Below, in pieces: positions 10,351 to 33,046 of a stretch of DNA of 33,046 bases. Made by a program: the position numbers and the translations under genes. The stretch is from an uncultured Rhodospirillales bacterium. Lineage in GTDB: Bacteria; Pseudomonadota; Alphaproteobacteria; ATCC43930; CGMCC-115725. The stretch lies in the NCBI GenBank assembly GCA_903923205.1, contig CAIXXC010000402.1, positions 1 to 33,046 of the forward strand. Direction: 5' to 3'. The notes beneath the pieces are model-generated. The model was given only the letters and a program-made list of their open reading frames with translations. It did no database searches and was not told the origin of the DNA. How positions within the stretch are numbered: position 1 is the first letter of the stretch; the number at the start of each line of letters is the position of its first letter.

Positions 10351-13266
10351 ATGATCGAGGACATGCTAACCATGGGCGAAATCGACAGTCTCGAGCGGCA
10401 GCTTAAGAAGGCAGCAGTCTCCTTGAATAAAAAGAAAATGATTGATGTGACGCTGCTCGAGATTATCGATGAATCGATGGTGTGGCCCATGTCATTTGAG
10501 GATCTCGCACCGATTACTGCCAACCACGGTATCGACAATCTTATAAGCCGAGCACCACTCTTCATTTGCGCAGTCGCCACCGAGATCGGCTTTCGCTTCG
10601 AAGGCGTTGGCACAGTTTTTTGGGCGAAGTTTGCAGATGCGCTCGGAGTCCCCGTAACGCTCGTTCAGCGTCAGAAAATTGCTGAGCAATTTGAAGTGCA
10701 GGCACAACGCTTTTCTCTAGCTAGACCAAGCGAGAGTAAATTTAGCAGTCATTTTTCAATAATCGCTTGGCCAATTGCAAACGCGCTTTTGCCGATCGAC
10801 CTAGTCGGTCCGGTTAGTCGACTCATGGCGCGCGCTCCAATTGCGTCACTTCCTGGTCCGGGACGAGATGTCAATTTCGCCACCTTACGCGCATGGGCAA
10901 GCGCCGCTGAAGGTGCCCGACTGACTGACTGGCTACGGTTTGAGGGTCCGACTACCCGCGTTTTAACTTCACTTTTGACTGACAACCGAGGATCAATGCT
11001 GTCGCAAACAAGCTATAATCGGTTGCGTGATGCTGTTGGAATGAACACCGAAGCATTTTTTGCTACGCGTACGGCCCGGCTGCGAAATCGGACGATCAAA
11101 GCCGGATCGAAAGCCGAGCAAAGTTCTGGCCGTTTGTTGCTGACGCGCGATACGACGGGAGTCCGTCTCTTCGTGACTTGGCCAGCTCTTCCGCCCGCAC
11201 TGTTTGAAGAAGCGCGAGGAATAGCGCGTTCAGCGGGGTGGCGACCGCGTTTATGGGGCAAGGGCTCACTACTCCACCCAGACAACGCACTTGGTCCTGG
11301 ACCCTTCGCTTTGGAACTCGGCTCGGCTCCCCAACAAGACGAAGCCTCATATCCGAACGTTGCCGATTTGTTTGGAGTTGGCAGCGATATCACTGCCGCA
11401 CTCGCGGCGCGGATGATCGACTGGACGCCGGATTTGGTGTTCGAGCCAAGCGAGGATCGAACCCGAGCGGAGCAGAAAGTCAACCTACCTAGCAGCTCAA
11501 TCGGTACGTTTTGGGTTGCAACGCGCAACCAGATGTCGATCCTAACGGCGTTGCGAAAGGTCGGCGAAGCGTGTGGGTACTCTATCTATGAAGCTGATCT
11601 TGCCCTAAATGGGGATCGTGAACTCCTTATCCGAGCTAGCTTGCTGGGCAACGAAACCCGTATGATGCTTGCGCGCCATCCGATCGACGCCATCGGTGCC
11701 GACCTGGGTGTGGTGCGATCTAATCGGCCATTTCTCTTCTTTAGGGAGGGAAAGGACATGGCAAACAGCGCGCCACAAAAGCTGACAACCGGGGGGCGAA
11801 TTGGCGCAGTTCCCGGCGTGGCTGGTTCACCGGGAGTTCGCGCTGAGGCCGCAATCCCTGCGACCGAGAGCATCGTCGATCTCTTGCTTTTCGAACGCGA
11901 TAACGCGTTTGAAGCCCTTGTCGAACGCCGGTTGCAACTTCGCGTCGAAAGCCCGTCACCCCTTGTGAACGTAGTAATTACTGCCGATCTCGAAATCGAC
12001 GGGGCGCTGGTCGCGCGGGGACGCGCCTTGTTAGCATTGCTGCCAACCACGGTGAGTGCTGCATCGACGTTGCTTGCGCCGCTCTATGCGGATTCGATCC
12101 GGGCAAAGTTACTTGAGACCGGCAGAGGACGTTTACGCATTATCGTCGGTCATTCGGCTCAAATTGAGATTGCTCTCGCGCGGGCTCCTGCATCGGTTGA
12201 CTGGAGTGGTTCGCTGCCAGAATTAATCGGTGCTGAGATGTCGTCGGTCTTGGTTGGCTCGACCGCTCACACACCGCATCGCTTCTTGCCGGAGAAGGCA
12301 ATTTCGACGCCGACGCGCGGGGTTTACGCCTTTGGCCTTAAGCTGCCAGACGGTCGGATGGCCGATCCGCTCATGCTGCTGACTTCGGATACCTTCGACT
12401 ATGGCGATTTCACTGCCCATTTCGGCGACGATCTAGGATCTCGGCGGATGTTCGATCACGGTAAGGGCGTCGGGGAAATCGCACGAGCGCGTGTTGCGTG
12501 GGCCCGCGCAATTTGCACGTCATTGTCCGCAATTGCTGCAAAGACCCGGGTAGTGCGTCAGTTCGACGAGCCATTGGTTATCGACCTCTGCGGACGGCCA
12601 TGGTCATTGTCTGAGGCGCGAATCAAAGATCGACCAACCGACCCCCATGCAGCGCTATGGCAGGTAGCACTCGATCGCGGTCTTGCTCTCCTCCCCGATC
12701 AGGCCAAAAACCGCTACAGCGCCGATTTTGGCAAGGAATTTGCTGTTCACGCGCGTATCATGGACCCAGAGTGGGGAACTGCAAATGGCGTTCCAGTCGA
12801 TGGCGCAATGGATGACGCTCTCAACGCCGCATTTTCTAAGGTATTGTCGAAGCTTCATGAGCGTGGGCTCCTGTTAGATGTCGAAGATGATTTTGATTTC
12901 GGTTCGCCTGCGGAGGACTGGGATGCTGCAGCTGCGAGCGCGCTGAAAATCATTGAACTCCCCCCGCTCACCAAACTGCTGGCGCCAAGCGATGGCGCAC
13001 GGCAACTTGCTGAGCGTTCTTATTCTCATGTTGGCATTGCCGAACTGGCGGAAGACCTCGCCGCTTGGACCAAAGCTTGGGCGCTGCCCCGTGGGCAACT
13101 ATCACCTGAAGTGGCGGCTAGTGCGCTGCAACTCTGGCTATCTCCCGCCTCCTGCGATGGTGTTGATGCCGCGATCCATGTTCTGGCCAGCGACCCATTT
13201 GTCGCCCGCGCGACGCGCTATGCCGCAATCCGCCTCAATCCGAGCTACGTCGAGGTCGCCCAATGA
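10351..13266 (+). CDS. Large protein of unknown family, first gene of the SNF2 pair
   Basis: A 971-aa soluble protein that I cannot assign. There is no P-loop, no obvious nuclease motif and no membrane segment. The N-terminal 60 residues are lysine-rich and encoded with A+T-richer codons than the transfer genes. The middle is a mix of strands and helices with an acidic patch (VEDDFDFGSPAEDWD) near residue 850. The first ATG (10351) has GAGAGGGG directly against it, which is too close; ATGs at 10363 and 10372 are equally possible starts. The stop overlaps the start of the next gene in ATGA, so the two are translationally coupled and likely form a complex. Large partners of this kind accompany helicases in defence systems, for example DruH or DrmD neighbours, but no homology is claimed. 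Confidence 0.75.
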   Translation: MIEDMLTMGEIDSLERQLKKAAVSLNKKKMIDVTLLEIIDESMVWPMSFEDLAPITANHGIDNLISRAPLFICAVATEIGFRFEGVGTVFWAKFADALGVPVTLVQRQKIAEQFEVQAQRFSLARPSESKFSSHFSIIAWPIANALLPIDLVGPVSRLMARAPIASLPGPGRDVNFATLRAWASAAEGARLTDWLRFEGPTTRVLTSLLTDNRGSMLSQTSYNRLRDAVGMNTEAFFATRTARLRNRTIKAGSKAEQSSGRLLLTRDTTGVRLFVTWPALPPALFEEARGIARSAGWRPRLWGKGSLLHPDNALGPGPFALELGSAPQQDEASYPNVADLFGVGSDITAALAARMIDWTPDLVFEPSEDRTRAEQKVNLPSSSIGTFWVATRNQMSILTALRKVGEACGYSIYEADLALNGDRELLIRASLLGNETRMMLARHPIDAIGADLGVVRSNRPFLFFREGKDMANSAPQKLTTGGRIGAVPGVAGSPGVRAEAAIPATESIVDLLLFERDNAFEALVERRLQLRVESPSPLVNVVITADLEIDGALVARGRALLALLPTTVSAASTLLAPLYADSIRAKLLETGRGRLRIIVGHSAQIEIALARAPASVDWSGSLPELIGAEMSSVLVGSTAHTPHRFLPEKAISTPTRGVYAFGLKLPDGRMADPLMLLTSDTFDYGDFTAHFGDDLGSRRMFDHGKGVGEIARARVAWARAICTSLSAIAAKTRVVRQFDEPLVIDLCGRPWSLSEARIKDRPTDPHAALWQVALDRGLALLPDQAKNRYSADFGKEFAVHARIMDPEWGTANGVPVDGAMDDALNAAFSKVLSKLHERGLLLDVEDDFDFGSPAEDWDAAAASALKIIELPPLTKLLAPSDGARQLAERSYSHVGIAELAEDLAAWTKAWALPRGQLSPEVAASALQLWLSPASCDGVDAAIHVLASDPFVARATRYAAIRLNPSYVEVAQ

Positions 13267-16115
13267 GCGATTTCCATCGCGTCCTGCTTGGGCTTCACGC
13301 CGGTGCCCGGCGGGTGGACCGGGACCAGGCTTTGCTTGGCGCGCTGGGTGTCGGAGCCTTTGCTTATGTCCATCAGATCGACAGCGTCCACCGCATGCTT
13401 ACAGGAACTGTATGCCGCTGGCTGCTCGCCGATGAAGTCGGTCTCGGCAAGACAGTGCAGGCAATCATGGTCATGCGCGCGCTTGCAGCGCAGAGCCCGC
13501 GACCGCTGACTGCTGCACTGGTTGTGCCGGACGATCTGGTCGGGCAATGGGAGGAAGAGCTGCTGTGCAGGGGACATGCGCTAGCGCTCGAAAGCGGCGA
13601 ACAGGGTGCGGTCGCTGGAAATCTTGTGCTGCGGCTGTGTCGTCCCAGTCGCCTGCTAGCCGGTGGCAAGATTGTCGCTGACAGGATCGATTTGCTGCTG
13701 GTCGATGAGTTCACCAAGCTCCAAGTGCAGATACGCGAGGATCTGATCGTCGCCGCACGAACTATACCCAACCTGATCGCAATGACCGCGACGCCTGCAC
13801 TCCATGACAAGCGGCAACGTCGGGAACTCATGCGACTGCTCGAACCCGAAGCGGACCGAATTGCGCGTGCCGAGAGCCGAGACGTTCTTGACGTACTGGC
13901 GGAGCGCGAGGTCGCGGCTCACGCGGCTCACGCGGCAGATCTGCAGGACGCGGGCAAGCGGCGTGCGATCGAGGAAAGCCATGGTCTCTACCGTCGACTT
14001 ATCCGCACAGCGCGCGACGATTATCCCAACGCGCTTCCCAAGCGGGTATATCAACCGATAAAATTGTCGCCGACCGATGGCGATGCCGAGCGCGCTCGAT
14101 CGACGAGGGGTTATCTTGAGGCAGCTCGAACGAGCAACCTTAACATCGACCGCAAAGCGCTTCTTCAGGTTTCGGGTCGCAGTCCACATTCACTGCGACG
14201 TCGTTTGAGCACTCTGCGGCGGACTACACCTGAACTGCAGGAAGCATGGCAGCTAATCACTACATGCCTCCGCGATGAACCTGGCGATGCGAAGCTTGAC
14301 GCTTTGATCGATCATCTGCGTGACCTAAATTTCGAACACCCCGACCGGCGTGTGGTAATTGTTGCCGAGGATGATCCTACGACGGATTATCTGAGCGAAG
14401 CTATTGAGAAACTGACCGACATGGAAGTCGCAAGAAAGCGGCGGACCAGCACGGCGGCAGACGAATTGGAGGTTCAAATCACCCTCCTCAAGGATGCCCT
14501 CGACGATTTCATTAGTGGCCAAGCCAAAGTGCTAGTGGCGTCCGAAGCAGCACGCGAAGGGCATAATCTGCAATTTGCAGATGAGATTATCTTTTTCGCT
14601 CTGCCCTGGTCTCCTCCAGACATCCAACAATGGATCGGCCGTATCGACCGACTTGGCACAAAGGGGCTTCCCGCTAACCGTCGAATTGCGATCACGCCGA
14701 TCGTGGTCGAGGGTTCAATTGAGCATAATATCCTTGGAGTCCTCGAAAGTACTGGTGTTTTCTTGCGCAGCGAAGTGTTCGACGAATCAGAATGGGAAGA
14801 GATCAGCGACGCGATCGGTGCGGCTGTTAATGGCGTGACGGGTGCGAGTTGGGGCGATGCTGAACGGCAGGCCAAAACGCTTGGTGCCGCTTATAACGAA
14901 TGGCTAGAAGCGACCATCCTGCCGCCTTCACCGCGCACTGTCCTCGCTCTTAAATTTGAGACCGCGTTGCGCTGTCGACCCTATGCCGCACCGACGCTTG
15001 ATTTTGGTGATGATAGGTGGAACTGGTTTCAGGCGCGGGAGCGTGCCGTCGAAGTGATGATCAAACTTGCACGCGAGGATGTTCTGGACGTGCGCAATGG
15101 CCACTGTGGCGACCAGCGGTTCAAGACCATGTGGTACAAGACAAAGCCTGAGCCAGGTGAACTGATCATCCCTGACCTAGATCCACAAGGCAGTTGGCAC
15201 CTCCAAGCTTATATCACGCGCCGTTCCGAAATCGAATGCCCACCGCGACCCTACGTAGTAAAGCAGGGCAAGCGTTCACTGCGGTTCTTCGACCATGGCT
15301 GTGGCATTCACGATGGTGCCGTCGCCGCCTTCGAGGCTAAGGCACCCGCTACCGATATCACATCCGAATTTACAATCGAATACCCCATCGGCCATCCTGC
15401 ACTGCTTTGGGAAGGTCGCAGAGTGCTGTTCGCGACGAGCGAGGTTGATCTGCGAGGTGCACTTGCTTTCGATGCCGAGACGATCTTGGGCACCAGCGAC
15501 GAAACGGCATCGAGGCCTGAGCGGGACGCGCGAGCTAGCGTAATTCGTACCGCACTTGCTCAATTTCAGGCGGATCGTCGTTGGCTGATCGATCTGGCTC
15601 CGCCCGAAATGGTATTCGCGACAATGGTTGAAGATGGCGATGAAATGGTGGTCGCAGACGCGGCAGCGGCTCTCCTCGCGCCCTTCCATGATGGGGTCGG
15701 TGTTCGCCAGTTGCCACGCCGACGCTCGATGCTGTCTGAACCGAAGCTCAAAGCAGCCCGGAATGCCGTCACGCGCGAACTCAACCGGATCGGGGGAGTG
15801 TATTTCGCCCGTGCGCTCAAGGCAGTCAGGCAGCAGTCCGGTGCACGGCTATTCGCAAGTCAAGCTGAAGCTGACAACCTGATCGACGCTGCGCGTGCTG
15901 AGCTTAAGGCGGCGGACCTCGCCGAGGTTCCTGCGGAGATAAAGCGGGCGGGCAAACGCGGCGCGGATCTGATGCTTGAACTGACATACGCCGCATGGAA
16001 CGCCCGGGCCGCAAGGCTTGAAGGTGTCGAAACTGCGCTCGGTGATGTCGCTTCGCTGAAGCAGCCGAAGTTTTTCTGGGTCATTCCCAGATCGGTTAAC
16101 GCGCCAAACCCATGA
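13263..16115 (+). CDS. SNF2/RapA-type superfamily 2 ATPase
   Basis: A 950-aa SF2 motor. Lobe 1: CRWLLADEVGLGKTVQAI with Walker A DEVGLGKT at 57-64, LVVPDDLVGQWEEEL (motif Ia), a Walker B box LLLVDEFT at 145-151 (DEFT where most relatives have DEAH or DECH), and IAMTATP (motif III) at 173-178. Lobe 2: LVASEAAREGHNLQFAD and PDIQQWIGRIDRLG (motifs V and VI) near 420-462. The GHNLQFAD/GRIDRLG form is typical of the RapA/DrmD/DpdE branch. About 480 residues after the motor are unassigned. It is coupled to the previous gene by ATGA. It probably translocates on double-stranded DNA as part of a defence complex. Its 3' end overlaps that of the opposing gene by 20 bases. Confidence 0.88.
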   Translation: MSDFHRVLLGLHAGARRVDRDQALLGALGVGAFAYVHQIDSVHRMLTGTVCRWLLADEVGLGKTVQAIMVMRALAAQSPRPLTAALVVPDDLVGQWEEELLCRGHALALESGEQGAVAGNLVLRLCRPSRLLAGGKIVADRIDLLLVDEFTKLQVQIREDLIVAARTIPNLIAMTATPALHDKRQRRELMRLLEPEADRIARAESRDVLDVLAEREVAAHAAHAADLQDAGKRRAIEESHGLYRRLIRTARDDYPNALPKRVYQPIKLSPTDGDAERARSTRGYLEAARTSNLNIDRKALLQVSGRSPHSLRRRLSTLRRTTPELQEAWQLITTCLRDEPGDAKLDALIDHLRDLNFEHPDRRVVIVAEDDPTTDYLSEAIEKLTDMEVARKRRTSTAADELEVQITLLKDALDDFISGQAKVLVASEAAREGHNLQFADEIIFFALPWSPPDIQQWIGRIDRLGTKGLPANRRIAITPIVVEGSIEHNILGVLESTGVFLRSEVFDESEWEEISDAIGAAVNGVTGASWGDAERQAKTLGAAYNEWLEATILPPSPRTVLALKFETALRCRPYAAPTLDFGDDRWNWFQARERAVEVMIKLAREDVLDVRNGHCGDQRFKTMWYKTKPEPGELIIPDLDPQGSWHLQAYITRRSEIECPPRPYVVKQGKRSLRFFDHGCGIHDGAVAAFEAKAPATDITSEFTIEYPIGHPALLWEGRRVLFATSEVDLRGALAFDAETILGTSDETASRPERDARASVIRTALAQFQADRRWLIDLAPPEMVFATMVEDGDEMVVADAAAALLAPFHDGVGVRQLPRRRSMLSEPKLKAARNAVTRELNRIGGVYFARALKAVRQQSGARLFASQAEADNLIDAARAELKAADLAEVPAEIKRAGKRGADLMLELTYAAWNARAARLEGVETALGDVASLKQPKFFWVIPRSVNAPNP

Positions 16116-17055
16116 AGCTTTCGATTACACTGTTAGCCAATGGATCCAAACGCCAAGACCAGGCTTTAGTCTGGATTCCTGTAAGCAGTGCAGCCCGTTC
16201 CAACTGCCGCGGCGGTTCGGTCAGAAAATCGAACTGACCTGTCGCAGGATCATAGCGGGACACAGGATGGCCCGCATCCAATGTCTGCCCGATGACAATC
16301 CAGCGCCATACATCCCGGCTTGGAGGAAACCAGATGGAGGCGGTGCTGCCATCGACATCCAAGATCGCGACACGGCTGCTGTAGCCGTTTTTTATAATGG
16401 CCGGAAAGCAGCCGGATTTCTCAACTCTCTGCCAACGACCCGACGGTGTCGGGTCAGACTTCCCGAAAAATGGCCCCAATCCGCTCAGAACTGCAACCGA
16501 GTTGGGCTCATCGAGCGCATAGCGGTCGCCGCTCGTAGCGAAAGCTTGGGCCAAGTGAAAAAGCGCGGTCGGCCCATCATTCGCGGCATCGGTCCCGAGC
16601 AATTCGACTAGCGCATTGCGCCATTCCGGGCGGCCCAATTCAGCGTGAAGGCTAAGCTTGGCAACCGCCGGGCCCCGATCCACATCGCGTGCGGACCGGC
16701 GGACAGCTACGTTGGTGCCGGCGTCAGTCGCGGCGCCAAGCATTGCCACCTCGGCTCCCCCCCAGTCTACCTGACGCGGTGGTGTTGGCGCGTAGCCACG
16801 ACCCGCCGCAGTAGCATATTCGTCGAGGTCGCCGCTGAGTTCCAGAATACGAAGCGCTTCCTCAATTCGGTTAGCGAGATACGATTCATCAAGCGCCAGC
16901 GGTCGATAGGCTTCTTTCAAACCCGAGGTGATCCGTCCCCTGCTGATGTAGCCGCCCTCGACAACAGCACCACGAATATGGCCAATCACCATTTCGAGCG
17001 AAGGCGCACCTCCGGCGTCCGCAACGAAGCCGATCGCCTGACCCCAAGCACTCAC
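16096..17055 (-). CDS. 319-aa protein with a winged-helix-like N-terminus
   Basis: The family is not recognised. Residues about 15-100 look like one or two winged-helix units: ISRGRITSGLKEAY, then EEALRILELSGDLDEY and GRGYAPTPPRQVDWGG. That ends in a pattern (glycine, tyrosine, proline, arginine) seen in accessory proteins of helicase-based defence loci, which is an impression only. The C-terminal half contains strands with many aromatics (SIWFPPSRDVWRWIVIGQ). The start is GTG at 17055, overlapping the stop of the previous gene in GTGA, so it is the last gene of the minus-strand operon and coupled to the NERD/UvrD gene. It may be the DNA-reading or adaptor subunit. Confidence 0.75.
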   Translation of the reverse strand: MSAWGQAIGFVADAGGAPSLEMVIGHIRGAVVEGGYISRGRITSGLKEAYRPLALDESYLANRIEEALRILELSGDLDEYATAAGRGYAPTPPRQVDWGGAEVAMLGAATDAGTNVAVRRSARDVDRGPAVAKLSLHAELGRPEWRNALVELLGTDAANDGPTALFHLAQAFATSGDRYALDEPNSVAVLSGLGPFFGKSDPTPSGRWQRVEKSGCFPAIIKNGYSSRVAILDVDGSTASIWFPPSRDVWRWIVIGQTLDAGHPVSRYDPATGQFDFLTEPPRQLERAALLTGIQTKAWSWRLDPLANSVIESFMGLAR

Positions 17056-18773
17056 TCGTCGGAACCGGTCGCGACGGCGGCGGCCAGCGCTGCGTCGAGA
17101 CTCTCCTTGGCGGTACGGTCGTGGGCGACGATGATGAGATGAGATCGCGCGCGCGTCAGCGCGACGTAGAGGTCACTGACTGTGAACAATGTACCGAGAC
17201 CGGAAAAATCGCACAAGATAACGACGTCGGCTTCAAGACCTTTGAAACTGCGCGCGGTAGTCACGAGCACGCCCTTGCCGTCACGCCAAGCGCTAGCTTC
17301 ATCAATTAATGGGACGCCGTCAACAGCAGTGACGTTGGCGAGGGGGCCCTTGGCCTTGCTTGCAGGACCCAGGATCGCGATCTGGCGTGGTTCGAGCCGG
17401 TGATCGGTGAGCAGGGATCGTAGTTCTTGATGGACGAGACCGCTGATCGCCGCAGGCGATTGGGGCACGATCAGCTTGGGCGGTCGACCGAGCGGTGCCA
17501 GTTCAAAAGGCTCGCTCTCAATACTCGTCGCGCTGTTCGCACAGGCGACGATCCGGCGCGTGTTGCGGCAATTGACGTCGAGCGCGACGTTAAATGCCCC
17601 TTTGAGGGGTGGTGCGATTGGATCGCGTCGTAGACTTTGTGCCTTGTCGAGAAACGCCCAGACCGGGTTGGCGCGATCGCACAGATAATCGAGCGCGTCC
17701 CACCAGCCTGGCGAGAAGTCCTGTGCTTCGTCGACCACAAGGGCGTCGAACGGCGGGCCATCAGGATAGAGTTCCATGGCCGCCTCAGCGAGGAGATCGG
17801 GTGCTCTTTCATCCCACCAACGCTGGGTATCGGCAGCATTGGCGACAAACTCGACGCCAGCTTCTTTGCACAGATCGGAAGCGAGGCGATGGAAGTTCTG
17901 AACCGTGATCTTGCCTCCATTCTCAGCGAGATCCTCGCCGATTTCCTCGCGGATCCATTTGGCGAGTTCGCTGTTGAAGCAGGTGAAGAGGATCGCGTCG
18001 CGGGTCTTGGTGAAAGAACGCGCACGCTGGATCGCTAGCAAAGTCTTGCCCGATCCGGCGACACCTTCCACGATCGCATGGGTATTGGCATCGAACGCGC
18101 GTAGCACCTGCAACTGCTGGCGAGTTAGCCGCGCGAGTGTCTCGGCAGTATTATCGACGCTGACGCGAAGCGGCTCATAGATGCGGAATTCAGGCGCAAG
18201 CGCGCGGCGAACCGCATCGAACTCCAGCACCGAGAGTTCATGCTTACCACCGCCGCCGGCCTTGTAAGCGCGCAGGATAGCTGGCTCGATGTCCGACAGG
18301 TCGTCCATAGTGATGATGGCTTCTACGGGTAGGTCGCTGGGTGGGTGATCCTTGTAAAGACAATGCGGAAAGGCGACCCCGACCGAAATGATGGTGCGGT
18401 CGGCGATCTGCTTGCCGCAGATCAAGTTGAGACGCTTCTTCAGTGCCCAGAGGCTGCGCCGCGCCTGCTTGACCGGGTCTTTGATCTGCCTGGGTTCGGA
18501 CTTGACCCACCGTACCCAAGTACGACCTTTCAAGGCGATCTCGCCGCCCTTTACCTCAAGAATAAGCAACCCATGTTGACGATGGAGAATAAGGAAATCG
18601 GCTTCGCCCTCACGAGCAGGCGCATCGATATCGTCGCGCGCAGGAAAAACCCAGGGCAGCGAATGCATAACAAGATAGCCCGACCCGAGTTGCTTCAGCA
18701 TCGCGCGCGCGACGTCCGCCTCTGAGCCGAATTCCATCATCTCGGGGTCAATAATGGGGATGAATTGGGCCAT
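17052..18773 (-). CDS. NERD nuclease-domain / UvrD-type helicase fusion
   Basis: A 573-aa protein. The N-terminal NERD domain (a PD-(D/E)XK-like nuclease family) has GEADFLIL with Asp59 and LLILEVKGG with Glu73 and Lys75, so the catalytic triad looks intact. From about residue 215 it is an SF1A helicase: GVAGSGKT at 237-244, LVVDEAQD at 345-352, LDVNCRNTRRIV (motif IV), VTTARSFKGLEADVVIL (motif V) and LYVALTRARSHLII (motif VI). The start ATG 18773 shares its last base with the stop codon of the 2059-aa gene (TGATG, reading the minus strand), so coupled translation is expected; the longer frame to 18845 would overlap that gene. It likely unwinds and cuts DNA or RNA-DNA substrates. Confidence 0.9.
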   Translation of the reverse strand: MAQFIPIIDPEMMEFGSEADVARAMLKQLGSGYLVMHSLPWVFPARDDIDAPAREGEADFLILHRQHGLLILEVKGGEIALKGRTWVRWVKSEPRQIKDPVKQARRSLWALKKRLNLICGKQIADRTIISVGVAFPHCLYKDHPPSDLPVEAIITMDDLSDIEPAILRAYKAGGGGKHELSVLEFDAVRRALAPEFRIYEPLRVSVDNTAETLARLTRQQLQVLRAFDANTHAIVEGVAGSGKTLLAIQRARSFTKTRDAILFTCFNSELAKWIREEIGEDLAENGGKITVQNFHRLASDLCKEAGVEFVANAADTQRWWDERAPDLLAEAAMELYPDGPPFDALVVDEAQDFSPGWWDALDYLCDRANPVWAFLDKAQSLRRDPIAPPLKGAFNVALDVNCRNTRRIVACANSATSIESEPFELAPLGRPPKLIVPQSPAAISGLVHQELRSLLTDHRLEPRQIAILGPASKAKGPLANVTAVDGVPLIDEASAWRDGKGVLVTTARSFKGLEADVVILCDFSGLGTLFTVSDLYVALTRARSHLIIVAHDRTAKESLDAALAAAVATGSDE

Positions 18774-21700
18774 CAGGACACCGCCCTCACGAACAACGCA
18801 ATCGGAACCACCTCCTTCGCGGGCTGCACCAATTCGCTCGCACACTCCATAAAGTGTGAGGCAGGACGGTAACGAACGCGGATGCCATCGCCCGTCACCG
18901 ACTGGAGGAGCCCGACCGTCCAGGTCTCTCCGGTCGCACCGAACACTTTGCCGTCTGTCCGGCGAAGAAGAAATACGTCTGTCTTCTCAGTGGCCTTATC
19001 GGCACCTCCGAGGTAAGGGCGGAATAGGCACATCGTTCCTTTGGGGACGGGACCACCGCCATCACCCTTCTTGCCGCTGAGTACGTTGGCTGTTAGCCGG
19101 AATAGGACGTCGCCCTTTTCTGCACCGCTTACGGCAAAGCGTGGAGCCGTTGCCGCAGACGTAAGCTCGCCCGCCGCGACGGCGACTGCACTTAACTCGG
19201 GAATGCCATTGGGGTCCGGTTTTAGACCGGCATTGGGATCTACATTGGGTAGAGAGAGTGCCTCGCTCGACGCGATCGGAAGGGCGCGCAGAACGAGCAG
19301 AATGTCCACCGCAATCGCATTCTTGCCATCTGCGAGCAGCGCGCCTCGTGCTGAACCAGGACGACTCCCGACAAAAGGATGGGCCAAGCAGATCACTTCG
19401 CCATTGTCCTTGATCAGCCCGCCATCGGCGCGTTTGACCGAAGCACCGCTTTCGGTCAGATCTGCTACAAGACGATCCAGCGCAAGGTCTTCTCGGATCA
19501 TGTCTATTGATAGCGGTGCGCCCTTGAAGGCTGCGCGCAGCAGGTCGGCACCAATACGCCGATCAAATAGTTCATGTTCGTACCGATTCTTGTAGGATCG
19601 CAGACACTGGTAACAACTATCGTCGCAGTCGCAGCTATCTAACAATTGGAGTGCGTCATCGACGAGGCGTTGAGGCTCGCGCGCTGCCGCCTTCACGAAA
19701 CCTGCCCCCCCTGCGGCCTGATCATAAAGATAGAGGTCGATAAATTGTTGGATGCCGTCGCCCGGGGCGAAACGGAAATCACCATCGATGTCGTTGGGCT
19801 CTAGGTCTTCCAATCTGCAGGCCGCGCGGCGAAGAGCCTCGACAGCCGAGCGCGCGGCGATCGTGGTTGATGGTCGATCAGGATCAAGGTCCCATTCCGA
19901 CGGGAGCGCGAGCCGGAATACAGCGACATCCGTCTTGAACTCGTTTCCGAGCACAATTTTGGCTGGGTTGCCGTCGCATTCGACGGTTTCCTTGGACCGA
20001 TTGGGTCGCGGTCGCGGGTGAGTTTGACCTCCGCGTAGTCGCCGCAGCGCCGGATCGAAGTCCGCAGGCTCTATGCGTCCGCATTTGTTGCAATAGTTGA
20101 AGCCGTAATCGGTTGCGCTCAGCGTCCCGCGATTGGTGACGACGAGGGTCTTGCTATCACCCCATCCTTCCCAGCCTGTGCCGATCGGCCAGGCTTCGCC
20201 GCCAATCCGAGATTCGGGCGGGAATTGCAGCGAATCGAGTGTGGCGCGTGTCGGACGAAGCCGCGTGCCGGCGTCGAAATCGGGCGGAAGCGCTGTGGTC
20301 GTCGGGGGGTGCGAGAAGCCAGTTGGGCGCACCCAGCGACGGGCTGGGCCGAGAGCTCCCCGGCTCGCGCATGCCGGGCAGTCGCGAGTTTCGTCGACAT
20401 AACCACCGGCCAAATCCTTTAGATCGGCATAGTTGCAGACTTGGCATTGGTAATAGAGTCGGCGGTTACGATAGGCCTCATAGCGGTCATCTTCATGCTC
20501 CGAATAGAGGCCGAGAGAGATGTAGCGCTGGCTGTCAACATAGACCTCGTGCCCCGGTGCATATTGGCTGAGCGCGGCATTTAGGCCGAGTTGCGGCGAA
20601 TAGCGGCGCTTTGGCTTCCAAGGGTCAGTGTCGCTTTCGAACACGCTGAAGGTCGCGACATCGGTAGGGAATGCGTATTTGGGCAACAGCCCCACGTCGA
20701 AGAGGCGATCGAGCAACTTACCGTTGTCGATGACGCCATGCTCCTCGTCGTCGGCGTCTTCCATCACCTCGTCTTCAATGTCCTCATCGACATGTAGCGA
20801 TTTAGCGGGCTGCGCCGGTGGCGCAGCTACAGGGGGTTCCACCAGCGCGTGCTCGAGCGATCCGGGAAAACTATCTAGCAATTCATTCGCAACGAGCGCC
20901 GGGCAATGCGCGGTGAACATCCGCTCGAGATCAATTCGCAGCGCCTCGCGGTCGTCGGAAATCCACCGCTTAAAGCCAGCAAGCGAGAAGACATCTTCGG
21001 CACCATTCATGAAATCGGCGACGCTGCCTAATGAAGAAAAGACGTCCGCACTGCCACCGACGGTGTCGATGCGGTCTTGCTGGAAGCGTCCGATGAGATA
21101 AGCGAGCGCTTGGCGCCGTGCAATGACGGGATTGTCCAGATTGAGGATTGGGTCAGGAGCGGGACCGGCCACGATCGGTGCCGGGTCGCGGAAGAAGCTC
21201 TGATCGTGGCTGTCGGCACCGCAGAACATCACGACGGTGGAAAGACCGGCGCCGCGCCGACCGGCACGACCGGCCCGCTGTTGGTAGTTGGCACGTCCGG
21301 GGGGCACATTGCGCAGGGCGACGGCGGTCAATCCGCCGATATCGATGCCGACCTCCATGGTCGTCGTGCAGCTCAATATATCGATCGGCGAGCCGATGCG
21401 ACCGTCCTGCTCGATTGGTATGTCCTGGAATCTCAGCTCATATGCTTCGTTGCGCGACATTGCGTTCGCGAGGCCGCTATCGTTGAGAGCGGCAGAATGC
21501 TCTTCGGCGATCAACTGGTGAGGCGCATAGGTGTCGTCGGGATCGTTCAATCGCTCCCACAACCGTCGGTAGAAGGCCTTGCGACTGCGGAAAACGGCAT
21601 CTTGGGCGGGGTCGATGGTCTTTGCGCTGCCGCCACAGTAGCCGCATGCCGCGCCCAGCAATGCGTTGAGTGGGGAGACCTTGGTGCAGCGCTCGCATCG

Positions 21701-24700
21701 CTGCCATGCTGTGGTATCGCCTGGATCGAGCGTGACTCGACCGGCCTGGACATTAAAATCACCTTGCTCCCCCGGACTGAAAACGGATCGCAGCACGGGC
21801 AAACAATTTGTCAGGAAGTCGCCCTTCACCCAGGATTTGAGGCCTCGTTGATCAAGCGCGCTGGCGATAATTTTGCTGAATTTCCCATTCCAAAGCCGCA
21901 CGCCAGACGAGCCCTTGGCGGATTCGATATTGGTGGGCGTCGCCTGGAGCTTGATCGCGTGCTTGCGCATCGCTTGCCAAAGCCAGAGCTCGATGAGCGA
22001 GGCCCGGACCTCCCCCACGGTCAAGCCATCGATCGTAGGGATTTTGAGTTCGTCGATCAGCTTCTGCTGTTCGGTCTTGGTGAGCTTGGGACGCAACATT
22101 GCCAAAGCTAGCGGGAACAAGCCTGTATGATCGTCCTGAAGCACCGCGTATATACTCTGGAAGACCGACAACGGTGCATCGTCGGAGGTCTGGGAAGTGA
22201 GACCGCGAAAGTCGTCATTCTCGGCATCGTCGTTGTCAACGAGAGCAGTCGCCATTTGGCCTGCGCGGTCCATGACGCCGTCATCATCGCCAAGCGGGCG
22301 CAGCCGGACACCGAATTTGGCGGCGCCGAGCGCGACTGCAAGCGGCGCGTCATTGAGCGACGCTTTGTAGGTGGGGTGTCGAAGAGCTGCCATGCCGACT
22401 AACAGTAGCGGTCTAAGGCTGTCGCGAAATGAAAAGGTCTTCATATCGCCGGCAAGACGCGATGCGGTCTGGCGACCATCAGAAAAGACGAGCGCCTTTC
22501 GGCCCTTTAGCGGTGTGTGACTCTCAGGACGTGGTGGCTGCTCGAGTACTTGTACAGTGATCAGTTCCTTAAAGGGCTGCTCACCCTTGGTCTGAAGGTC
22601 GGAGATCCCGCCAATCGCGGCGTCGCCGCAGACCGCCTCACAGCGCGGGCAATTGTCGAACAAAGTAGCACTTGAGATCGGCGGCAACCAGACTTCGCGG
22701 TTGAAACCCCCACTACCGTCGATGCGTCCCGAACCAAGATCGAGATAAACGGGGCGCAGAAGTCCGGCCTTCTGCGGGAACGGATCCTCAAGGCATACGT
22801 GGATAGGCTGGATCAAGCTGGTATCGCCGGCATAGGCGCGACCGTTGTCCTGCCAGAGATGCTCGACTCCGGTTGGGGCGCCGACATTGGCACGTGCGAC
22901 TGATAGGCCACAATCACGACAGCTATGAAGTTCGTAAACTTGTGATCCACAAAGGCAGTTCTGGCGCGCCTCAGCATAGAGGGCCCCAGTGGGCCCACCG
23001 CGCTCTTCCGTCGAGATTTGATTGCACTGAGGGTTCGCACACGCCCACAGGCCAGGGAGCCCGCGAAACAGCAGATGGACGCGGGCTGGCAGTAATGGTG
23101 CGGCACCGGCAGTTGCTCTGGCGAGCGAGGCGAGTTCGACCAAAGAGTCGACTGCCGAGGCAGCAGTCTCTGAATCTATTGTAGGGAATAGCGCTGCAGG
23201 CAGCGCTGTGAAAGCCCACGCTGCCCCAGGGGAAGGGACTGGATCGGTAGGGGATGACGCGCCAGACGTAATGTTCCGAAGACGCCCAAGCACTTCTGAG
23301 CCATCAAGGATCGCGGCAAGCGCGCTCGGCAGATCGTCCTCTGTCCAGTCACAACTCTTATCTGTTGCCGTTCCAAGATCATACAAGCGCGAAAATGCGA
23401 CGCTACCGGAATCAGTGCGCACATCATCGACAATAAGGAACGGCAATTCGGTGGTCGCCGTCGTCCCGCTTGCCACAACCACGAACTCCTCGACCTCCGC
23501 GCCGGAGGCGTCGCGTCCGTGTACTTTGACAATAATGTCAGCGGTACCACTGTCCTTACGGGACAGGGTAACGGTGCGTGCGTCCGAATGCGCAGCATAT
23601 TTGGCGAGGGGAACGAGCACTTGCGCGCGATCAATCGGTGACGAGGATTGGAGCATCGCGAGCGGAACGGATGCGAGGGCTGTGGCGAAGTCTGCGGTAC
23701 CAGCACCTGCGGGCTCGAAGGAGCGCTTGTCTCCTTGCAGTGTCTGGATGCGTGCTTTCTCAAGCCCGGAAAGGCCCGCTACAAACTCTGCGGCAGAGTC
23801 GCCATCCGAGAAGGATGCGCTGGTCGCGATGAAGACAACACGGGATGGCGGCAGGCCCAGGCGGTCTAGCAGCCGGCGGATCAGAAAGGCGACCTCGGTG
23901 CCATTGGCCCCGCGATAAAGGTGGGCCTCGTCGAGGACAAGGATGAACTTTTCGTTCGGATGTGCTTCAAAATAGGCACGTGTGTCGGCGAAAATACGTC
24001 GCTCTATCGGCCGGAGAAGCATATATTCGAGCATCGAATAGTTGGTGATGAGGAGATCGGGGCTGGCGTCCTGAATCTCGTGCCGGGTAAGGAGTTCGGG
24101 ATCCTCGGGCCGCTCGTTGGCGCGCAATGGCTCGCCATTTTTGGTCTGCCAATGCTCGCCTGATTTACCGTACCATTTGCGAAGGCCGTCGAAGGCGCCG
24201 AGGAAGCTGTCGGGCTTCGCTGGCCAACGTCCCTTCTCCTTGAGGACACGGACGAGGGCCTGATCGTTAGCATCGCCAGAGCATGCGCCATCCTCGATCT
24301 TCAAATAGTATTCGAGGGTCTTTAATCGCTTCTGGTCGCGGTCACCGTCGCGGATTCCCGGATACAGGGTGCGTCCGGTATAGCGTCCAAATTTAGCCGG
24401 GCGTCCGGCTGCACCCGTGAAGAACTTTCGGACTGCAGAGGCACCGAATAGGGTTCGAAGGCGGCCCAACTGGTCATTGACCAAAGCGTTCATTGGATAG
24501 AGCAGCAGCGCGCGGACGGCGCGGGTCTCGAAATTCCTAGACCGGTGAATTGCTTCGTCCGCGAGGCGCGCAAGCACGGGCAACAAGAAACTCTCGGTTT
24601 TGCCCGAACCGGTGCCGGTCGTGACGACGATGCCGGTACCGCCGGCATCGGAGCGCATCGTTTTCTCGAGCGCTTGCGCCTGGTGCTCATAAGGGGGGTC

Positions 24701-24952
24701 GAAGAGGAGGTTGTCGGCAGCTTTCGTGGCGAGTGAGGTCAGGAATTCGCGGACATCGCTATCGAGATCAAGCGACGCGAAGGCTCGATCGCCGATGTAG
24801 GCTGGCGTGCTCTCGATATAAGGGGTCTGGGCGACTCCACCTTCCATCAGCAGGCGACGACGAAGGTGCACAACTTTAGGGTTGGAGAGGTGATAGGTAG
24901 CTTCGATGTAGGACGCGAGCGCCTCCCGCATATGTTCTATTTCAGTTCGCAC
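18773..24952 (-). CDS. Giant DEAH-box helicase with DUF1998 (Druantia DruE / MrfA-like)
   Basis: A 2059-aa SF2 helicase. The Q-motif region YEHQAQAL (88-95) precedes Walker A TGTGSGKTES (112-121). LITNYSMLEYML, LVLDEAHLYRG near 338-348 and FIATSASF follow. A long insert with zinc-type cysteine clusters (about 635-690 and 770) splits lobe 1 from lobe 2. Lobe 2 has LVFSDGRQTASRLAGD and TTMEVGIDIGG, then QQRAGRAGRRG near 1222. Further cysteine pairs lie near 1090-1110, 1500-1530 and 1620. DUF1998 is seen as LYDQAAGGAGFV near 1735 with CDCDDSCYQCLRSYKNRYEH after it, then 260 extra residues. Size and layout fit Druantia DruE better than DISARM DrmA, where DUF1998 is a separate gene. The start is GTG 24952, behind a G-rich run ending GGTGGAG; ATG 24931 is possible. 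Confidence 0.9.
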   Translation of the reverse strand: MRTEIEHMREALASYIEATYHLSNPKVVHLRRRLLMEGGVAQTPYIESTPAYIGDRAFASLDLDSDVREFLTSLATKAADNLLFDPPYEHQAQALEKTMRSDAGGTGIVVTTGTGSGKTESFLLPVLARLADEAIHRSRNFETRAVRALLLYPMNALVNDQLGRLRTLFGASAVRKFFTGAAGRPAKFGRYTGRTLYPGIRDGDRDQKRLKTLEYYLKIEDGACSGDANDQALVRVLKEKGRWPAKPDSFLGAFDGLRKWYGKSGEHWQTKNGEPLRANERPEDPELLTRHEIQDASPDLLITNYSMLEYMLLRPIERRIFADTRAYFEAHPNEKFILVLDEAHLYRGANGTEVAFLIRRLLDRLGLPPSRVVFIATSASFSDGDSAAEFVAGLSGLEKARIQTLQGDKRSFEPAGAGTADFATALASVPLAMLQSSSPIDRAQVLVPLAKYAAHSDARTVTLSRKDSGTADIIVKVHGRDASGAEVEEFVVVASGTTATTELPFLIVDDVRTDSGSVAFSRLYDLGTATDKSCDWTEDDLPSALAAILDGSEVLGRLRNITSGASSPTDPVPSPGAAWAFTALPAALFPTIDSETAASAVDSLVELASLARATAGAAPLLPARVHLLFRGLPGLWACANPQCNQISTEERGGPTGALYAEARQNCLCGSQVYELHSCRDCGLSVARANVGAPTGVEHLWQDNGRAYAGDTSLIQPIHVCLEDPFPQKAGLLRPVYLDLGSGRIDGSGGFNREVWLPPISSATLFDNCPRCEAVCGDAAIGGISDLQTKGEQPFKELITVQVLEQPPRPESHTPLKGRKALVFSDGRQTASRLAGDMKTFSFRDSLRPLLLVGMAALRHPTYKASLNDAPLAVALGAAKFGVRLRPLGDDDGVMDRAGQMATALVDNDDAENDDFRGLTSQTSDDAPLSVFQSIYAVLQDDHTGLFPLALAMLRPKLTKTEQQKLIDELKIPTIDGLTVGEVRASLIELWLWQAMRKHAIKLQATPTNIESAKGSSGVRLWNGKFSKIIASALDQRGLKSWVKGDFLTNCLPVLRSVFSPGEQGDFNVQAGRVTLDPGDTTAWQRCERCTKVSPLNALLGAACGYCGGSAKTIDPAQDAVFRSRKAFYRRLWERLNDPDDTYAPHQLIAEEHSAALNDSGLANAMSRNEAYELRFQDIPIEQDGRIGSPIDILSCTTTMEVGIDIGGLTAVALRNVPPGRANYQQRAGRAGRRGAGLSTVVMFCGADSHDQSFFRDPAPIVAGPAPDPILNLDNPVIARRQALAYLIGRFQQDRIDTVGGSADVFSSLGSVADFMNGAEDVFSLAGFKRWISDDREALRIDLERMFTAHCPALVANELLDSFPGSLEHALVEPPVAAPPAQPAKSLHVDEDIEDEVMEDADDEEHGVIDNGKLLDRLFDVGLLPKYAFPTDVATFSVFESDTDPWKPKRRYSPQLGLNAALSQYAPGHEVYVDSQRYISLGLYSEHEDDRYEAYRNRRLYYQCQVCNYADLKDLAGGYVDETRDCPACASRGALGPARRWVRPTGFSHPPTTTALPPDFDAGTRLRPTRATLDSLQFPPESRIGGEAWPIGTGWEGWGDSKTLVVTNRGTLSATDYGFNYCNKCGRIEPADFDPALRRLRGGQTHPRPRPNRSKETVECDGNPAKIVLGNEFKTDVAVFRLALPSEWDLDPDRPSTTIAARSAVEALRRAACRLEDLEPNDIDGDFRFAPGDGIQQFIDLYLYDQAAGGAGFVKAAAREPQRLVDDALQLLDSCDCDDSCYQCLRSYKNRYEHELFDRRIGADLLRAAFKGAPLSIDMIREDLALDRLVADLTESGASVKRADGGLIKDNGEVICLAHPFVGSRPGSARGALLADGKNAIAVDILLVLRALPIASSEALSLPNVDPNAGLKPDPNGIPELSAVAVAAGELTSAATAPRFAVSGAEKGDVLFRLTANVLSGKKGDGGGPVPKGTMCLFRPYLGGADKATEKTDVFLLRRTDGKVFGATGETWTVGLLQSVTGDGIRVRYRPASHFMECASELVQPAKEVVPIALFVRAVS

Positions 24953-25112
24953 ACTCCACCCCCCCCGTGCGTGGCGGCTCGTCCTCCCCGCGTCGCGCCA
25001 GTAAATCTTTAGCTACAGTAGCGTTGCTGCTGCCGGCATCAACACAATGCATAAGGTATCGGTAAGAGGGCAAATGAAAATTCTAGGACAGCAAACGTTA
25101 ATGACGGCGGCC
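24953..25112 (-). promoter_or_regulatory. Only real gap in the minus-strand operon, with a G8 tract before the giant helicase
   Basis: There are 160 bases between the 1584-aa gene and the helicase gene, while all other junctions in the run overlap or nearly touch. On the minus strand the last bases before the start form a run of eight G (24959-24966), then TGGAGT. TTGATG and TACTGT spaced by 16 bases could be a weak promoter. No terminator is evident. The G-run sits in the ribosome binding region, so length changes could tune initiation, but it would not shift the reading frame. Confidence 0.4.
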
Positions 25113-29867: not shown

Positions 29868-29868
29868 C

Positions 29869-31227
29869 TCAGATGAGCTCTTCAGCATTGATGGCAACAA
29901 GGGTCAGACCATCCGATGGCTCGACGGCCAGCCCTAGACGGATCAGCAGTGCTTCAAAAGCCATGGAATTTGGCCTGAGGTCATCGTCGCGATCCAGCGG
30001 ACCAAAGCGATTTGACCGCAGCAGATCGCCGTCCTGGGCGCCAGCGCCGACCACCAATGACCATGTGGTTCGCAGGCGTTCGGCAAAGTCGGTCATCGTT
30101 AACACCTGGTTTTCCTTAAGCAGACTGAGCGCGAGCACGCGCAGCGTATCCGCCTGCAGCTCGATATGTTTGTGTTTGGCGACCGCAGAGCGCGGCTGAA
30201 CAATTCCGATCCGAACCCCCAGATCGCGAAAATGCTCGTCCAGTATCTGACGAGCCTCTGCAGAGCTTGCGAAGACGTTCCAATCGCCTTCTGCCACGGT
30301 TTGTCTATCGACGGAGGAGTAGGCGCGGTCATAGCTTGAGGAAAAGAAGTCGAGCGCGCGCGCATACGTTGCCCGGCTTTGACTCCGGATGCGGGGATTG
30401 CTTCCCTGAAGAGCATCGATCAGCAGCAGCGGTGCGTCGCTGGCCTGCCGCATCATATACGCGAACAACCAGCAGCAGATTCCCAATATCACATAGCGCA
30501 GAGCGTAGTTTGAACGCTGCCGCTCAAGATTTGCCGTTAGCTGGCCAATTGCGATGGTGCAATCTTGCATCATGGCCGCGATCGCTGCCGCTCGATCGGG
30601 TTCGATCGAGCCAAAAAATTCGTCATGACGATCAGGCCACTCCTCGTACTCCGCATCGAGCAATGGCTCGCCCAGCGTCGCCAGAGGCGGTGGCGGTAAT
30701 TCGATCAGTCGCCTGATCGTTTCAAGCACGATCCGTCCCTCAGCGGTCGCCTCGAAAATGTTGATGACGAAGCTTCCTGAATAGCCGTGGTTCTTCGACG
30801 AATTGGAGACGTAACGCACCGAAGGCGCACTGTAGTCGGCACCAAACGTAGAATAAGGGGGGAAGGCGGCGGCAAGCGCTGAGCCGTCATTGTTATAGGC
30901 GGCGTTGAGATGCGCCCGCAACGTTCTGAAAGCATCAAGGTCAACCGACGGATCCAGCCTACCAAGATCGATTAGAAGGGGATGCAGCCGGTCCGACGGA
31001 TAGTCGTCTTGAACGCGCTTACTGTCCTTTGGCGCGATCTTCGGCACAGACGCTTTGTTGAGATATTCAAGCTTATAGTGACGCCCGGTCAGCGCCAGAA
31101 GGAAGCTCGTCGCGAAATGGACCGGCTTCATGCGAAGCGGTTGGTACCCCAATATAGCACCATGCACGCGGCGCTCTGCCGCTGTTTCTTCACGCCTTTC
31201 GGCGCCGCTACGCACTGGCTTAGGCAT
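29869..31227 (-). CDS. 452-aa protein of unknown family (DptG-like position)
   Basis: Not recognised by sequence. It starts MPKPVRSGAERREETAAERR, a charged helix, then FATSFLLALTGRHYKLEYLN. One hydrophobic segment, YVILGICCWLFAYMMRQ near residues 240-260, could be a membrane or buried helix. The C-terminal 120 residues are helical and resemble a winged-helix end (LALSLLKENQVLTMTDFAERLRTTW). ATG 31227 is preferred over GTG 31239: AAGGTG lies nine bases upstream, and the gene then overlaps the end of the ATPase gene by eight bases. It sits between a GNAGDGKT ATPase and a 1.6-kilo-residue protein, the place and size of dptG in phosphorothioate-dependent restriction loci; homology is unproven. 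Confidence 0.75.
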   Translation of the reverse strand: MPKPVRSGAERREETAAERRVHGAILGYQPLRMKPVHFATSFLLALTGRHYKLEYLNKASVPKIAPKDSKRVQDDYPSDRLHPLLIDLGRLDPSVDLDAFRTLRAHLNAAYNNDGSALAAAFPPYSTFGADYSAPSVRYVSNSSKNHGYSGSFVINIFEATAEGRIVLETIRRLIELPPPPLATLGEPLLDAEYEEWPDRHDEFFGSIEPDRAAAIAAMMQDCTIAIGQLTANLERQRSNYALRYVILGICCWLFAYMMRQASDAPLLLIDALQGSNPRIRSQSRATYARALDFFSSSYDRAYSSVDRQTVAEGDWNVFASSAEARQILDEHFRDLGVRIGIVQPRSAVAKHKHIELQADTLRVLALSLLKENQVLTMTDFAERLRTTWSLVVGAGAQDGDLLRSNRFGPLDRDDDLRPNSMAFEALLIRLGLAVEPSDGLTLVAINAEELI

Positions 31228-32830
31228 AGGTACGTACACCTTCGAATCGACGACCGTCCGCGCTCAGACTGACTTGGATGAGCTCGAGACTCTCAAGATG
31301 GACGGACCAGATCGTATCATGTCTGCTTGCTTGGCCCGCTCCCAGCTTCTCGAGAAAGGCGTCGAGGCGATGAATATCCCTCTCGGGTATGAGCTTGCGA
31401 GGCAGACCGCGGGCCAGGCGGCGCAGCGTTCGCCACAAGGGGAAATCGATTCGCAAGCGCGGCGAACCGACAATCGTGGGCGCGGTGAGCGCGACATGAT
31501 CGGGGCGATAGTCGAAGCAACCAGCCAACCGGGAGGGCAGACGCGGAACCTCGAGCTTGAATTGCTCGGCTGCGACCCGTTCGGCGGCGACGAATGAGCG
31601 CGAAGGCTGCTCGTGAAAGCGATGTCCACTCCACAGATAAAGATGCTGGTCCCGCGAATCAAAACGGACCGGACAATAGGCAGCGTTGATTGCATTAACC
31701 AGATCTGCGACTAGTGCGCGTCCGGAACCGCGCCGACCTCTTAACAGATTTTCAAAGTCGGTGGCATCCGGATCGGCCAGATCAAATACTTCCTGACCGT
31801 TCACGTGCTCGAAATAGAAACGCCGCTTGAGGGCGGCAAAATCTTCCCACTCAAGTGTCGGGTGCGGCGGCGGTACCGGAGCGCGCATTGCCCAACCATG
31901 ACGTACTTCGGGCGCGCGGTTCTCGAGCGCGGCATCCCAGAGTGGGTGACTGCTCGCCGCCGGATCGACAGCCTGAAGCGCTGCCGTTAGATCGAAGCGC
32001 TCATCGCGGGAGAACAGCGCCTCGGAATACCAGTCGTTGCGCTGGTAGTCGCCGCGCCCTTGGCGCCCAAAGATCATGCGAGCAATTATGATCCAGAGCT
32101 CGCGTACCGTTGCGCGATAGCCAAGCGCCACCAATCGATCGGCCAATGTCCTGAGGCGGGCGCGCACGAGCGGCAGCGACAGCAGTTCGACGTTGCGGCG
32201 CGCAATCGGCTCACTGGCTCCTGTTATAACGCGCTTCAATCCTTCATCGGCTAGGATCGTATCGAGTAGCGCATCGACAAAGTCTGCTCCCAGCGGGTTG
32301 CGCAGGCTCAGGTCAACGACGAGCACATCTCCCGCGTCCTCCTCCAGTGTGAGATCACCGTAAGCAAGGCGGTGACGGCACTGGCGCGAAACCTCACTGA
32401 GGTGTGGCGCCGACGAATCTGCCATGCGCATCTGATACAGCGGATATTCGTTGGCGGCGATGCAGAAGGGATGTCCCGCGGCGATCGCATCACGCCACGC
32501 TGCCAGTATCGGACCGGGATCGTCCCCACGCATACGTGCGGTCGCGTCCTCGATCACGACGGCACCTGCGGCTTCCAGTTCCGCCTTCACACGGCGCAGC
32601 AAATGCGTCTTACCGTCACCAGCATTACCGGTCAGAACAATGCTGCGCCCCGCGCGTACCTGCTCGCCAAGGAAACGCTCGATATCGCCGGCTACATGCA
32701 ACCGAACGAAATCCTCGTCGGTTAGCGCCTCCGCAATAGCTTTCGGACCCGCCGCAGCAAGCGTGCGCCACAGCGCACTTCCGTCCTCTTCGACTGCCGT
32801 GCGAGGCAAATCGACCTCTCCCCCATTCAT
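31220..32830 (-). CDS. P-loop ATPase with GNAGDGKT motif (DptF-like)
   Basis: A 536-aa ATPase. Walker A is VLTGNAGDGKTHLL with the P-loop at 68-75, preceded by a helix and IERFLGEQVRAGRS. A Walker B-like strand is DVLVVDLSLRNPL at 168-180, between PFCIAANEYPLYQ (sensor-like) and a helical lid. The GxxGDGK(S/T) form with the IAANE stretch recalls DptF, the ATPase of phosphorothioate-dependent restriction, but I cannot confirm it by alignment. The C-terminal 300 residues contain FEHVNGQEVFDL, GRRGSGRALVADLVNAIN and LYLWSGHRF, with no known motif. ATG 32830 overlaps the upstream stop in ATGA, and GGGAG lies about ten bases upstream. Confidence 0.85.
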   Translation of the reverse strand: MNGGEVDLPRTAVEEDGSALWRTLAAAGPKAIAEALTDEDFVRLHVAGDIERFLGEQVRAGRSIVLTGNAGDGKTHLLRRVKAELEAAGAVVIEDATARMRGDDPGPILAAWRDAIAAGHPFCIAANEYPLYQMRMADSSAPHLSEVSRQCRHRLAYGDLTLEEDAGDVLVVDLSLRNPLGADFVDALLDTILADEGLKRVITGASEPIARRNVELLSLPLVRARLRTLADRLVALGYRATVRELWIIIARMIFGRQGRGDYQRNDWYSEALFSRDERFDLTAALQAVDPAASSHPLWDAALENRAPEVRHGWAMRAPVPPPHPTLEWEDFAALKRRFYFEHVNGQEVFDLADPDATDFENLLRGRRGSGRALVADLVNAINAAYCPVRFDSRDQHLYLWSGHRFHEQPSRSFVAAERVAAEQFKLEVPRLPSRLAGCFDYRPDHVALTAPTIVGSPRLRIDFPLWRTLRRLARGLPRKLIPERDIHRLDAFLEKLGAGQASRHDTIWSVHLESLELIQVSLSADGRRFEGVRTYA

Positions 32831-33046
32831 TCCCGTGATTCTCCCGCCTCTTGAAAGTTAGCATTGCCCAAGGGAATGAAGGCGTCCAGCGGCAACGCCG
32901 CCATTGCTGGCTGATGATCAAGACGGCTCGCCAACCAACGCTTGCGCCAGAACTCCGCGATGCGCTCCGAGGCGTCCTCGAACTGGTCTGGTGCCGCCAG
33001 ATAGCTGGGCAGTTCGGTAGTGCGTTCGACCAGCCAGTCCGGAGCG
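32827..33046 (-). CDS. C-terminal part of an upstream operon gene, 5' end outside window
   Basis: A frame open from the right edge ends at 32827-32829 (TGA), overlapping the ATPase start as ATGA. The 72 visible residues read like a real protein: DWLVERTTELPSYLAAPDQF, then ERIAEFWRKRWLASRLD, and a C-terminus AFIPLGNANFQEAGESRE. They are amphipathic and rich in tryptophan and arginine. No family is recognised. It is too short for a call, but shows that the minus-strand operon continues beyond the window. Competing frames here are shorter or read poorly. Confidence 0.7.
   Translation of the reverse strand, partial: APDWLVERTTELPSYLAAPDQFEDASERIAEFWRKRWLASRLDHQPAMAALPLDAFIPLGNANFQEAGESRE

Follow-up and report, generated by a model that had tools for sequence, protein, structure and literature searches.

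The question raised by this locus is whether a cluster of five motor proteins and two candidate nucleases, situated beside conjugation genes, represents a new defence system, as a first-pass annotation had proposed, or belongs to a family that is already known. Judged from the sequences, the locus is best read as a Druantia-related composite that carries an SspFGH-like module, and as a Druantia variant rather than a wholly new system.

Gene content and surroundings of the locus

The window, that is, the whole stretch of DNA that was analysed, is one entire contig (G000:C402) of 33,046 nt, so that no sequence continues beyond its ends. Eight long, intact genes occupy positions 10351-32830, and the 3' end of a ninth lies at the contig end:

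10351-13266, plus strand: A, 971 aa, the usual DruE partner in DruA-A-DruD-DruE loci
13263-16115, plus strand: SNF2-family ATPase, 950 aa, Pfam SNF2 and Helicase_C
16096-17055, minus strand: DruD-like protein, 319 aa, joined to DruD by iterated HMM
17052-18845, minus strand: NERD-UvrD/SF1 helicase fusion, Pfam NERD and UvrD, with D..ExK and GVAGSGKT motifs; the true start is likely at 18773, with a TGATG overlap with DruE
18773-24952, minus strand: DruE, type I-like YprA-family DEAH helicase, 2059 aa
25113-29900, minus strand: H, SspH-like N-terminal part, PD-(D/E)xK nuclease motif, C-terminal RuvB-like AAA+ domain and winged helix
29869-31239, minus strand: G, SspG-like, 456 aa
31220-32830, minus strand: F, SspF/DndF-like P-loop protein, 536 aa, Walker A GNAGDGKT
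32827-33045, minus strand: druA 3' end, the final 72 codons plus stop, truncated by the contig end

The full order is DruA-F-G-H-DruE-NERD/UvrD-DruD-like, convergent with the SNF2-A pair. The first-pass annotation had placed at least eight genes, with four or five motor ATPases, two candidate nucleases, and NERD-UvrD and SNF2 components, on a mobile element, and each of these points was borne out: the eight intact genes come after TraD and a relaxase of the TrwC/TraI type, their products include five P-loop NTPases (F, H, DruE, UvrD and SNF2) and two candidate nucleases (the PD-(D/E)xK domain of H and NERD), and Pfam NERD, UvrD and SNF2 profiles match. Its list of eight genes nevertheless overlooked the druA 3' end (33045-32827, minus strand). 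It had also taken constant overlaps as a sign of one functional unit. Most neighbouring genes do overlap, by 1-32 nt, but the series is not unbroken: 160 bp separate H from DruE, and the SNF2-A pair is convergent.

In window coordinates, the locus is preceded by a TacA1-GNAT pair, SSB, TraD, the TrwC/TraI relaxase and a repressor gene of the S24 type. The pair (436-1250), a TacA1-like antitoxin with a GNAT acetyltransferase toxin, is located upstream of the conjugation genes, and the S24/LexA-like repressor gene (9509-10150) lies between the relaxase and gene A and is not conserved beside A in the other loci examined. Another contig of the same genome (L157, G000:C265) carries Zorya ZorD and a Druantia III pair (DruH, DruE3).

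Homologies of the individual components

The locus had initially been set apart from Druantia, and this separation did not survive the profile searches: DruE is of type I, DruA is present although cut by the contig end, and a DruD-like protein and A accompany them. DruE matched PADLOC DruE1 with 1447 bits (E 0), whereas DruE2, 3 and 4 reached at most 587 bits, and its Pfam domains are DEAD, Helicase_C and MZB. The 319-aa protein has no direct PADLOC match; its Leisingera orthologue matches PADLOC DruD1 (E 1e-5), and an iterated HMM groups the 319-aa protein with the DruD proteins beside DruE in about 75 loci. Protein A gave no Pfam, PADLOC or NCBIfam match, and its AlphaFold model (pLDDT 85) gave no PDB fold match; the idea that A is a DruB-DruC fusion is unsupported (prob 0.1-0.3% against DruB/DruC). 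A was found in 73 of the loci examined, and in DruA-A-DruD-DruE loci this gene (about 950 aa; e.g. L009:14031-16898) is near-universal yet unnamed.

F, G and H were compared by hhalign profile-profile alignment with their counterparts from canonical SspFGH loci, which were retrieved with the SspG profile. F, which also matched PADLOC SspF (E 2e-11), aligned with SspF of SspBCD-linked loci (prob 98.7%, E 2e-16), G with SspG (prob 98.4%, E 7e-15) and H with SspH (prob 96.1%, E 4e-9, with the nuclease motif within the aligned part), and the negative controls gave 0.2% (G against SspF) and 0.04%. The nuclease motif of H, R996-x-D998 ... I-E1016-x-K1018, that is, RxD-(17)-IExK, is invariant in five H proteins from three phyla. 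The C-terminus of H matches RuvB (E 4e-17, positions 27-326 of 330), and the motor also matches RuvB in the PDB (E 3.5e-9). By sequence, the same RuvB-like motor is present in H of an uncultured Rhodospirillales bacterium (L013) and of another proteobacterium (G447), and a HerA/FtsK motor is present in H of haloarchaea and Hymenobacter. The PADLOC SspH profile does not match the window H but does match haloarchaeal H; it also picks up FtsK-type translocases and is therefore useless for surveys. No H was found in the viral contigs. For the module first described as DptFGH-like, SspFGH is the closer fit, and the H motor is RuvB-like, not HerA/FtsK. Two narrower assignments were rejected, namely a strict DndFGH, since DptF scored 20 against a cut-off of 50 and an SspF-like protein is favoured, and the identity of F with the GHKL (MzaB-hit) ATPase of sister loci, since the ATPase folds differ by motif.

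At the contig end, the druA stop and the F start overlap as ATGA, and the truncated product is 85% identical over 72 aa to residues 635-706 of the L013 DruA (E 1e-35), which occupies the equivalent position; an HMM built from 67 DruAs also matches it (E 3e-10). The remainder of druA was not found elsewhere in the assembly, and a Pfam DruA search of the genome gave no match, but its controls gave none either. The AlphaFold model of DruA (pLDDT 79) had no significant PDB match, and its weak GNAT-like fold matches go no further than agreement with the published annotation.

Distribution of the core and its head cassette

The DruE profile scan covered 80 genome loci, 16 viral contigs and plasmid records. 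DruA-A-DruD-DruE is a common arrangement across many phyla, in which A and DruD occupy the place of DruB-DruC-DruD in the Pseudomonas putida pKF715A locus. The core of five genes (DruE-NERD/UvrD-DruD-like plus SNF2-A) was found in 20 loci, which fall in a single DruE clade with support 100 and a longer DruE (about 2050 aa); the lone exception in this clade, L022, runs into the edge of its contig. Its members are alphaproteobacteria, an Acidobacteriota bin, Planctomycetota and a gammaproteobacterial bin. SNF2-A is convergent in the alphaproteobacteria, and in Planctomycetota A-SNF2 lies ahead of DruE in the same orientation. Elsewhere the same genes are found together at 40-80% protein identity, so the set is not a chance assembly. 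Co-occurrence in other genomes was the very test by which the proposal of a coherent system was to stand or fall, and the gene order does recur across genomes.

What differs within the clade is the head of the locus. L013 has the identical nine-gene order at 68-89% identity (DruE 81%). Within the clade, F-G-H was seen only in L013 and the window, as was the full set of nine genes; in both, DruA-F-G-H occupies the position upstream of DruE, and in several sister loci DruA and a gene for a GHKL ATPase (PADLOC MzaB match) stand beside DruE or A. The window DruE is 67% identical to that of Mesorhizobium, whereas the L013 DruA is only 28% identical to Mesorhizobium DruA, and in the DruA tree the L013 protein groups with that of G447, which is likewise FGH-linked, and away from the DruAs of loci whose DruE is sister to its own. 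Together, the identities and the trees indicate a swap of the head cassette. A single origin of all FGH-linked DruAs was neither rejected nor proven (p-AU 0.41).

The DruA-F-G-H cassette also occurs elsewhere, in Halobacteria, Bacteroidota and Pseudomonadota. Haloarchaeal plasmids of Haloplanus, Natrialbaceae AArc-T1-2 and Natribaculum carry it with DruE nearby; a Halobaculum plasmid, two Hymenobacter plasmids and G447 carry it as well, and no DruE match was found in these three plasmid records or in the G447 genome. DruA precedes F or is fused to it at every H locus inspected with upstream sequence, a count that leaves out a Halalkaliarchaeum match and G421 (cut at G); DruA-F is a single protein in G447 (1281 aa) and Hymenobacter canadensis (1052 aa). 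Other partners of such modules were also observed. In G447 (L122:5326-14188), a PbeA-like helicase comes after SspB-SspC-SspD, together with a GHKL (MzaB-hit) ATPase of the type found alongside DruA in sister Druantia loci. In G642 (L150:3820-19899), the FGH module has yet another partner: SspF and a PglW-like NERD-kinase form one protein of 1377 aa, and behind it lie G, H, a gene for a 279-aa protein and one resembling SspC.

Interpretation and comparison with known systems

We propose a model, which we consider somewhat more probable than its negation, whereby the locus is a composite DNA-targeting immune system, a Druantia variant of two blocks into which DruA-FGH was swapped as a head cassette. 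The first block, DruA-F-G-H, would form a DNA-damaging complex of the SspFGH/DndFGH type, in which F may be the nucleotide-binding member, G and the N-terminal region of H may bind DNA, and the PD-(D/E)xK domain of H may cut it; DruA would take over from the phosphorothioate genes the task of licensing or targeting FGH. A RuvB-like AAA+ ring, in place of a HerA/FtsK pump, would drive H, suggesting action on branched or replicating DNA. The second block would be the Druantia core, DruE-NERD/UvrD-DruD-like plus SNF2-A. Because type III DruE engages replication intermediates that contain ssDNA (PMC13192584), DruE may unwind such intermediates here, with NERD/UvrD unwinding and cutting, SNF2 moving or remodelling DNA-bound protein, and A and DruD serving as scaffold or adaptor. 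DruA is the likely hinge, at which the GHKL ATPase-DruA head of sister loci would have been exchanged for DruA-F-G-H. The two blocks may also act separately, since DruA-F-G-H occurs without DruE (G447 and the three plasmid records) and most sister loci have the core but no FGH.

A more far-reaching version, which we put forward only tentatively, holds that DruA-F-G-H is a distinct and widespread system in its own right, in which a GNAT-like DruA replaces phosphorothioate as the self/non-self or targeting partner; the exchange for a RuvB-type motor would have taken place in one proteobacterial branch, H would cut branched replication or recombination intermediates, and in the window the cassette would work as one machine with the DruE-NERD-SNF2 core.

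The composite model must be weighed against the possibility, which we take seriously but doubt, that two independent systems lie side by side: a DruA-F-G-H restriction system, and a NERD/SNF2 Druantia core whose own DruA head was lost and which acts alone or borrows DruA. The occurrence of the cassette without DruE in the whole G447 genome and three plasmid records is in accordance with such independence, as is the 160 bp between H and DruE, a gap in which no promoter-like or terminator-like site was found and which is little informative either way. However, several sister cores keep DruA by DruE or A, suggesting that the core needs it; the H-DruE junction is retained in L013 at 81-89% identity; and DruE adjoins DruA-F-G-H independently in haloarchaea. 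The locus might instead be a plain Druantia type I among other genes of a defence island, since DruE1 is the best profile and DruA and a DruD-like gene are present; but DruB and DruC have no profile match, A matches neither, NERD and SNF2 are tied to a single DruE clade rather than scattered, and DruA-F-G-H travels as a cassette, which makes this reading unlikely.

The homology of F, G and H to SspF, SspG and SspH could also indicate an orphan phosphorothioate-dependent restriction module (SspFGH/DndFGH) that uses modification genes elsewhere in the genome, and in G447 SspBCD does lie on another contig. We consider this very unlikely here, as neither the genome of the window nor that of L013 has an SspC/DndC profile match and the constant neighbour of the module is DruA rather than SspBCD. 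Least probable of all is a role outside defence, as a DNA-processing module of the conjugative element in plasmid competition, stability or transfer. TraD, TraI and SSB genes adjoin the locus and several relatives are on plasmids, yet the gene order recurs in many different surroundings, and antiphage members of both the DruE and the FGH family have been published (PMC13192584, PMC8092258).

The composite model can be set against the systems already described. It had been noted at the outset that no catalogued system is complete here, and profile searches agree, none of the DruB/DruC, SspC/DndC, DISARM and Dpd sets having been found. DISARM was rejected because DrmA matched (54 bits) via the helicase core only and no methylase or DrmB matched, and Dpd because NCBIfam DpdE scored 148 bits against a cut-off of 500 and no deazapurine synthesis genes were present among the proteins scanned. 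With Druantia type I (DruABCDE; Doron et al. 2018), the window shares a type I DruE and proteins of the DruA family and DruD-like type; it differs in having A instead of DruB/DruC (neither of which gave a PADLOC match in any window protein examined), an additional NERD-UvrD and SNF2, and a DruA that is associated with F-G-H. The partners of Druantia II, III and IV (DruM/F/G, DruH, DruL) have no match in the window; type IV, DruE-DruF-DruL, was added in the PADLOC paper. The locus represents a recurrent Druantia subtype not described as a unit in the profile collections searched.

Similarly, SspABCD-SspFGH (PMC8092258) and DndFGH (PMC10853773) share with the window an adjacent F-G-H with a P-loop F and a nuclease H; here, the partner is DruA and a RuvB-like AAA+ motor replaces HerA/FtsK. 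SspFGH damages DNA that lacks phosphorothioate and is toxic without SspBCD (PMC8092258). The profile search for SspC/DndC gave no match in the genome of the window (541 contigs, 100% estimated completeness) or in that of L013, so a different licence is needed, and DruA would be the obvious candidate. How DruA-FGH spares its host thus becomes a direct question. Rakesh, Aravind and Krishnan (2024, PMC10853773) describe DndFGH as stand-alone and as having captured HerA/FtsK motors, and they note that some DndF proteins carry DUF4338, the GNAT domain of DruA, as an N-terminal fusion. Compared with these fusions, DruA here mostly stands as a gene of its own, and the cassette is joined to a DruE core; the text of that paper mentions neither Druantia nor DruA nor RuvB. 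No description of DruA-FGH in Druantia, of the NERD/SNF2 core or of the RuvB-like motor was found in the open-access literature searched. The motor itself suggests that one nuclease chassis takes different DNA engines, and it could reveal the part that the motor plays in target choice.

ARMADA, BRIGADE and TALON (Bell et al. 2025, PMC12458937) likewise combine helicases of the YprA/DruE, SNF2/RapA and UvrD types, with a NERD nuclease in TALON. Their PglX-like methyltransferase, RelE-GajB, TPR-CSD and TBP genes were not found in the window, and ARMADA, which joins a PglX-like methyltransferase to BrxHII-like and YprA helicases, was rejected because no methyltransferase domain was found among the window proteins scanned; the DruE of the window scores as that of Druantia type I. 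Druantia and the FGH restriction complexes, two families that have been treated apart, would be linked via a shared partner, DruA.
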